From Acidobacteriota bacterium (lineage in GTDB: Bacteria > Acidobacteriota > Blastocatellia > UBA7656), in the NCBI GenBank assembly GCA_040754075.1, contig JBFMDH010000028.1, positions 1 to 64,000 of the forward strand: a stretch of DNA of 64,000 nucleotides, given 5' to 3'. The position numbers were made by a program, and so were the translations under genes. The notes under the pieces were generated by a model. It was not told where the DNA came from, did not search any database, and worked only from the letters and a program-made list of their open reading frames with translations. This document shows positions 50,854 through 51,321 of this stretch, one piece after another; the stretch's first letter is position 1; each line of letters begins with the position of its first letter.

Positions 50854-50883
50854 TTGACATTTTTGCGCGGGCTTTGGTAAGTT
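50854..50883 (+). promoter_or_regulatory. Promoter of the tRNA-Asn gene
   Basis: TTGACA at 50854-50859 and TAAGTT at 50878-50883, spaced by 18 bases. Transcription would begin near 50890, about 20 bases before the mature 5' end of the tRNA. Confidence 0.65.
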
Positions 50884-50910
50884 ATCGGTTCCTTCACCAC
50901 GAAGGATTTT

Positions 50911-51223
50911 TCCTGAGTAGCTCAATGGTAGAGCATCCGGCTGTAAACCGTTGCAGCTTCCACAGGCGACTGTGGTTGACAAACTGGGTGAATTCAAGGA
51001 ACCCTTCGCTAATGCAAGTTAGCATGGCAACCTTGAGCGAAGCCTGCTGAAGGGTATCAAAGTAAGCAGGAACGTGCAGAGACTAGGAGTTGAGGAACCC
51101 ATCCAATAAAACTCCCACGAGCGCCCGGCAACTTGAAAAAGTTGATGAAATAGTCCGCACCTTTGCGAAAGCATAGGAGAAAGCGTAACCGGAGGGTTGT
51201 AGGTTCGAGCCCTACCTCAGGAG
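50911..51223 (+). tRNA. tRNA-Asn(GUU), split by a group I intron
   Basis: Exon 1 is 50911-50944 and exon 2 is 51186-51223. Joined, they give a full class I cloverleaf. The acceptor stem is TCCTGAG/CTCAGGA and the D stem is GCTC/GAGC. The anticodon stem TCCGG/CCGGA has loop CTGTTAA, so the anticodon is GTT. The T stem is GTAGG/CCTAC with loop TTCGAGC, and the discriminator is G73, as expected for Asn. CCA is not encoded. Without the intron model the local loop would read CTGTAAA (GTA), but a Tyr tRNA should have a long variable arm and A73, so that reading is rejected. Confidence 0.95.
50945..51185 (+). ncRNA. Group I self-splicing intron in the anticodon of tRNA-Asn
   Basis: The 241-base intron splits the anticodon between its second and third bases. 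P1 forms between the exon end GCTGT (50940-50944) and the guide GCAGC (50953-50957), with the hallmark U.G pair at the splice site. P10 forms between GTTG (50950-50953) and the 3' exon TAAC. The last intron base is G. Core elements are GGCAACCTTGAGCGAAGCC (51026-51044), which matches the P4-P6 region of plastid trnL introns, and GTGCAGAGACTA (51075-51086), which matches their P7/P3 region. It has no open frame, so no homing endonuclease. Subgroup IC3 is likely. Confidence 0.93.
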
Positions 51224-51232
51224 TTCAAAACG

Positions 51233-51269
51233 AAAGCGGTAGTCAGTAATGGCTGCCGCTTTTGTTTTT
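51233..51269 (+). terminator. Terminator of the tRNA-Asn gene
   Basis: AAAGCGGTAG (51233-51242) pairs with CTGCCGCTTT (51253-51262) with one G.U pair, followed by TGTTTTT. It lies 10 bases after the tRNA 3' end. Confidence 0.88.
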
Positions 51270-51321
51270 CAGCCGATATTGATTTGCCTGCGTTCAACTA
51301 TTCATTCATCATAAGCCGCGT

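Follow-up and report, generated by a model that had tools for sequence, protein, structure and literature searches.

A tRNA-Asn(GUU) gene split within its anticodon by a small group I intron that recurs at the same site in many bacterial phyla

The stretch of DNA considered here (hereafter the window) consists of the first 64,000 nucleotides of contig JBFMDH010000028.1, from an Acidobacteriota genome of the class Blastocatellia. On its forward strand, at 50911-51223, lies a gene for tRNA-Asn(GUU) into which a group I intron of 241 nt (50945-51185) is inserted between U35 and U36. The 5' exon, TCCTGAGTAGCTCAATGGTAGAGCATCCGGCTGT (50911-50944, 34 nt), and the 3' exon, TAACCGGAGGGTTGTAGGTTCGAGCCCTACCTCAGGAG (51186-51223, 38 nt), give a complete cloverleaf when they are joined, with the anticodon GUU and the discriminator G73, and they reach the top score of the cloverleaf scorer used to place the junction. 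In this scorer, a U before the intron and a G after it (the intron's own last base) are obligatory. It is stricter than ARAGORN, which it replaced after the latter, run on candidate exon joins, had picked shifted junctions and wrong tRNAs and was discarded. The boundaries are unique, as a shift of the junction by a single base in either direction destroys the CUGUUAA loop. The initial annotation, which saw a perfect Asn cloverleaf only after removal of 50945-51185 and placed the insertion between the second and third anticodon bases, was correct on both points. ARAGORN calls no tRNA at all in the window, which means that the split gene can escape standard annotation. The features of the locus are as follows.

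50854-50883, + strand: possible promoter, TTGACA, 18-base spacer, TAAGTT (read by eye)
50911-50944, + strand: 5' exon of tRNA-Asn(GUU), positions 1-35, ending in U35 (cloverleaf on joining; the same exon is intact in intronless relatives)
50945-51185, + strand: group I intron, 241 nt, no ORF (RF00028 and covariation over 105 homologues)
50953-50958, + strand: internal guide GCAGCU, pairing with GGCUGU of the 5' exon (50939-50944) to form P1, with U.G at the splice site
50960-50975, + strand: P2 hairpin (helix covaries)
50984-50989, + strand: P3 5' strand, its 3' strand at 51123-51128 (helix covaries)
50994-51036, + strand: P4 (50994-50999 with 51031-51036) enclosing P5 (RF00028 and consensus fold)
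51037-51072, + strand: P6 region, outer helix 51043-51048 with 51065-51070 (strong covariation)
51081-51085, + strand: P7 5' strand GACUA, guanosine-binding helix, partner UAGUC at 51151-51155
51129-51144, + strand: P8 hairpin (helix covaries)
51151-51155, + strand: P7 3' strand UAGUC
51160-51177, + strand: P9 hairpin with a GAAA loop (helix covaries)
51185, + strand: terminal (omega) G
51186-51223, + strand: 3' exon of tRNA-Asn(GUU), U36 to discriminator G73, CCA not encoded (cloverleaf on joining)
51233-51270, + strand: probable intrinsic terminator, 10-pair stem, 10-base loop and T-rich tail (by eye)

The possible promoter is a weak candidate, since a promoter consensus scan called no sigma-70 site there. 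The split tRNA-Asn gene of G007, a genome of the same order, carries TTGACA-18-TAGTTT at the equivalent position. The loop of the probable terminator is longer than those permitted by the terminator scan. A hairpin followed by T's also lies immediately 5' of the tRNA start (50890-50906), and a similar one precedes the G007 gene; it may serve as a leader element or as terminator of the upstream gene.

The covariance model RF00028 matches 50935-51177 from its first to its last position, at 82.7 bits (E=2.6e-21), and this is its single match in the whole 7.58-Mb genome. The group I assignment that had been made from the bare sequence is thereby confirmed, at the level of the whole class, since the model makes no distinction between subgroups such as IC3. 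The RF00028 alignment and helix covariation agree on a conserved core, P3-P8, with the guanosine site in P7. Two core segments had been singled out beforehand: the one taken for P7 (51075-51086) does contain its 5' strand, while the one likened to P4-P6 (51026-51044) holds the 3' strands of P5 and P4. A consensus fold of 105 distinct introns recovers the anticodon stem, P1, P2, P3, P4, P5, P6, P8, and P9. Standard pairs occupy 97.6% of the cells of the 44 intron pairs, a share that drops to 33-44% on sliding the partners by 1-3 columns, though the fold was built from the same 105 sequences and is thus favored over its slid versions. Double changes occur at 32 of the 44 pairs, against 10-20 in the slid controls, in counts that ignore kinship. 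The covarying helices match the independent RF00028 alignment. Three of the P7 pairs are invariant in all 105 introns, and the remaining ones are kept in 104 and 103. The four P1 pairs nearest the splice site are equally invariant, among them the predicted U.G splice pair (U50944 with G50953), whose U is a precondition of the junction search. Covariation with the guide is absent at exon base 31 (G or A), which leaves P1 with only 4-5 pairs in those members. The intron ends in G, as had been noted, and so do all 105, which is no independent evidence because the junction search demanded a terminal G. Archaeal and eukaryotic bulge-helix-bulge tRNA introns are short, lie at a canonical site after the anticodon and have no ribozyme core; such an intron is excluded here by the full group I core, the length of 241 nt and the site within the anticodon. 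The P10 helix that the initial annotation held possible did not materialize: across the 105 introns, no conserved pairing between guide and 3' exon appears in either of two registers. This is not counted against group I membership, since P10 is not universal in tRNA introns, in which the anticodon stem can align the exons, to go by the title of Zaug (1993) as listed in PMC3984707.

Group I introns are unusually common in the tRNA genes of the window's class (for instance L083-L148). RF00028 matches occur in at least 62 of its 162 genomes, a lower bound given the stricter filters used for this count. The search for the same insertion in related genomes, which had been proposed as a check, succeeded: the cloverleaf scorer resolves 14 tRNA-Asn(GUU) introns in the class, all of them at 35|36, and the G007 gene is split at the identical site by an intron ~83% identical to that of the window (195 identities, 41 mismatches). 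Four more tRNA-Asn introns, of 320-573 nt, are present in G040, G064, G053, and G056. The class also has introns in tRNA-Lys(CUU) at 35|36, in tRNA-Arg(UCU) and tRNA-Leu(UAA) at 34|35, and in CAU-anticodon tRNAs at 33|34; in many more CAU cases, the 5' exon lies farther upstream than the search range. One CAU-anticodon tRNA of G007, probably fMet, carries a second group I intron of that genome, apparently between positions 33 and 34 (L064, G007:C131:37558-37754). Two others interrupt a 23S rRNA gene on G002:C87 (L063, L065), where long inserts look protein-coding. The nearest named relatives of the window intron are found in Acidobacteriota, including Pyrinomonadaceae.

The distribution reaches far beyond the class. 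About 85,000 species genomes were scanned with a pattern consisting of a tRNA 5' exon ending in CTGT, a next base other than T and two conserved core words at set distances; this fixes the 5' side of the site and puts no constraint on its 3' side or on the remaining cloverleaf. Among the 113 stretches retrieved, 101 are tRNA-Asn(GUU) genes split at 35|36, nine start alike but run past the end of the stretch, and three (L242, L250, L254) are chance matches. Carriers with long introns or with less typical exons escape this pattern, which makes the species count a minimum. The 101 genes fall under 28 NCBI phylum names, Patescibacteria included, plus 24 records with no phylum name. Some of these labels seem mistaken, as on a “Klebsiella” bin and on a “Nanoarchaeota” bin, and GTDB merges several Patescibacteria subgroups, so “roughly two dozen” phyla is an upper-end NCBI figure that would be smaller under GTDB. 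What had at first seemed a singular oddity is thus shared by about a hundred species of many phyla. In a tree that also holds the Lys, Leu, Arg, and CAU introns of the class, a branch with 99% SH-aLRT has all 33 Asn introns, sampled from many phyla, on the same side. Judged by their sequences, the sampled Asn introns are one lineage, apart from the Lys, Leu, and Arg tRNA introns of the class. In a quick tree of the Asn introns, based on about 246 columns and on uncertain bin labels, phylum labels are strongly clustered (35 changes, against a minimum of 27 and a shuffled mean of 57.5), and some phyla appear in several places. This suggests a history of long vertical stretches with some transfer.

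Clues to mobility come from the longer introns. Those of G064 (553 nt), G040 (555 nt), and G056 (573 nt) each carry an HNH-like ORF in the P1 loop. The G064 ORF scores above the cut-off for Pfam PF01844 and matches phrog_2255 at 1.5e-31, and the G056 protein scores just below the cut-off for HNH_2. The G053 intron (320 nt) has extra sequence at the same place with no long ORF, and the window intron is the ORF-less form. The intron is absent from the phage and plasmid records searched, where the sole match was one of 35 bases, to a phage tRNA-Asn. From the ORFs we infer homing of the Asn intron lineage by means of an HNH endonuclease, and the distribution may instead reflect old vertical descent with losses.

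Our interpretation, which we hold with high confidence, is that the window carries an ORF-less group I intron in tRNA-Asn(GUU) at U35|U36, part of a single lineage that occupies this site in many bacterial phyla and whose HNH-bearing members point to spread by homing. The splicing chemistry can be proposed from what is known of group I introns. The exons of the precursor RNA would pair as the anticodon stem, and the guide GCAGCU would pair with GGCUGU of the 5' exon to form P1. An exogenous guanosine bound at P7 would then attack after U35, and the freed U35 would attack after the terminal G, yielding tRNA-Asn and a linear intron. The intron would have spread by homing into the conserved anticodon loop of tRNA-Asn, as the members with an HNH ORF suggest; ORF loss would have followed, along with a mixture of inheritance, transfer, and intron loss.

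One alternative is that the intron is kept because it benefits the host, for example by breaking up an anticodon-loop attachment site for elements that integrate into tRNA-Asn. Lone intronless 3' halves of tRNA-Asn, starting at the anticodon loop, are found at G062:C212:7212-7258 (L268, L289), at G108:C36:1-44, where the half lies at a contig end, and at C128:10411-10453. They look like scars of an integrating element in G062, and probably do so in G108. Both genomes also carry the split gene, which speaks for a protective role. However, these are only two genomes, no integrase is linked to the scars, and sporadic presence suits a selfish intron equally well. We consider this explanation quite unlikely.

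The window genome itself raises another alternative. In addition to the split gene, 71 further tRNAs were read, and these include one intact tRNA-Asn(GUU) with an encoded CCA (G000:C3:323023-323098), located in a 28-tRNA run on contig C3 (320491-324390); no tRNA-Asn beyond these two was found among them. An earlier search pattern for tRNA-Asn had been dropped as too loose, with 81 matches against 110 in the control. Because of the intact copy, splicing of the window gene is not strictly required as far as the sequence tells, and the suggestion that all AAC/AAU decoding would depend on splicing if this were the sole tRNA-Asn does not apply here. It could also be argued that the split gene is a relic, with an intron that no longer splices and an array copy that does the work. 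But a relic free of constraint would show decay of its exons or core, whereas the exons still form a complete cloverleaf, the helices P1, P3, P4, P6, P7, P8, and P9 are undamaged, and the -35-like element persists upstream. That the gene is a relic is therefore very unlikely. The 28-tRNA run (L042) adjoins ATP synthase genes, an HNH gene, and a gene whose product combines an intein with a Ro60-like vWA domain; tRNA runs with an intact tRNA-Asn are also seen in G002, G007, G032, G059, G135, G137, G138, and G141.

Within the window's order, for which only eight genomes are available, G007 is split and the tRNA-Asn genes of G001-G006 are intact. That of G003 differs by one base from the joined exons of the window. 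Upstream of it lies a homologue (65% identity) of the alpha/beta hydrolase that is also encoded upstream of the split gene. This is a natural empty site at what seems to be the corresponding locus. Synteny between the window and G007 was sought as well, but without success, as the two align over no more than the tRNA gene plus about 70 bases on its 5' side.

Other carriers appear to have no such spare copy. Nitrospira moscoviensis NSP M-1 is a cultured isolate with a complete chromosome of 4.59 Mb, on which 46 canonical tRNAs account for 19 amino acids. Apart from the split gene (L233), no tRNA-Asn was found in it, and the chromosome has 0 matches to the intact tRNA-Asn pattern. Its decoding of AAC and AAU should depend on removal of the intron, and since the isolate must read both codons with the split tRNA-Asn, this intron family very probably splices in vivo. 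The complete Aminicenantes chromosome CP070825, whose split gene lies only partly within the stretch analyzed, also has 0 matches to the intact pattern. G064 (95% complete) has 40 canonical tRNAs, none for Asn; it lacks a few other tRNAs too, and probably depends on splicing of its split tRNA-Asn. An assembly or binning artefact, in favor of which only the gene's low visibility to tRNA finders can be cited, is refuted by the identical gene structure in independent genomes, the complete N. moscoviensis chromosome included, and can be given practically no weight.

The interpretation of an Asn intron lineage spread by homing can be taken further, although with a little less than even confidence. 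There would be a single undescribed lineage of mobile ribozymes, present in roughly two dozen phyla and in all of them at a single site, U35|U36 of tRNA-Asn. It would have spread by HNH homing and become indispensable baggage in many of its carriers, among them a cultured nitrite oxidizer, by sitting in their only tRNA-Asn gene. The practical consequences are more immediate. Because the tRNA-Asn lineage is missed by a standard tRNA finder, some genomes will appear to have no tRNA-Asn. Dependence of translation on a ribozyme becomes directly testable in a cultured organism whose complete genome shows no tRNA-Asn other than the split gene. Finally, the co-occurrence of ORF-bearing introns, ORF-less introns, and empty sites in one class provides material for studying how such introns spread and persist.

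Several known systems invite comparison. The group I intron of tRNA-Leu(UAA) lies at 34|35, one base earlier than the tRNA-Asn site. Those of tRNA-Ile(CAU), tRNA-Arg(CCU), and tRNA-fMet in proteobacteria and cyanobacteria, which self-splice in vitro where studied, are likewise group I introns in bacterial tRNA anticodon loops, but they occupy other tRNAs and sites, and are set apart here by description rather than by sequence. The tRNA-Leu introns are also small group I introns in the anticodon, usually ORF-less and with a U at the 5' splice site (PMC4033280, PMC3984707); they differ in host tRNA and site, and form a separate group in the class tree. Most descriptions of bacterial tRNA group I introns concern cyanobacteria and some proteobacteria, in which they interrupt the tRNAs for Leu, fMet, Arg, and Ile (PMC4033280, PMC3984707), with further cases in fMet and Ile2 tRNAs found by hand (PMC8450103). 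In a chloroplast survey, Asn is among the intron-free tRNAs (PMC9840617), and tRNAs with group I introns are mentioned without detail for circularized, mostly Patescibacteria genomes (PMC8172020). Nowhere in the open-access literature searched is a group I intron reported for tRNA-Asn. Outside that comparison stands the preprint of Nakagawa et al. (2025), which, as cited in PMC12641178, describes a new tRNA insertion site in Patescibacteria. As far as that citation goes, it too concerns group I introns that interrupt bacterial tRNA genes at a new site. Patescibacteria are among the carriers here as well, and the preprint may partly anticipate the present finding for that group; novelty is for this reason stated with reserve. 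A group I intron in a bacterial tRNA is thus of a known kind, but its host tRNA, its site, and the breadth of its distribution look new in the open-access literature searched.
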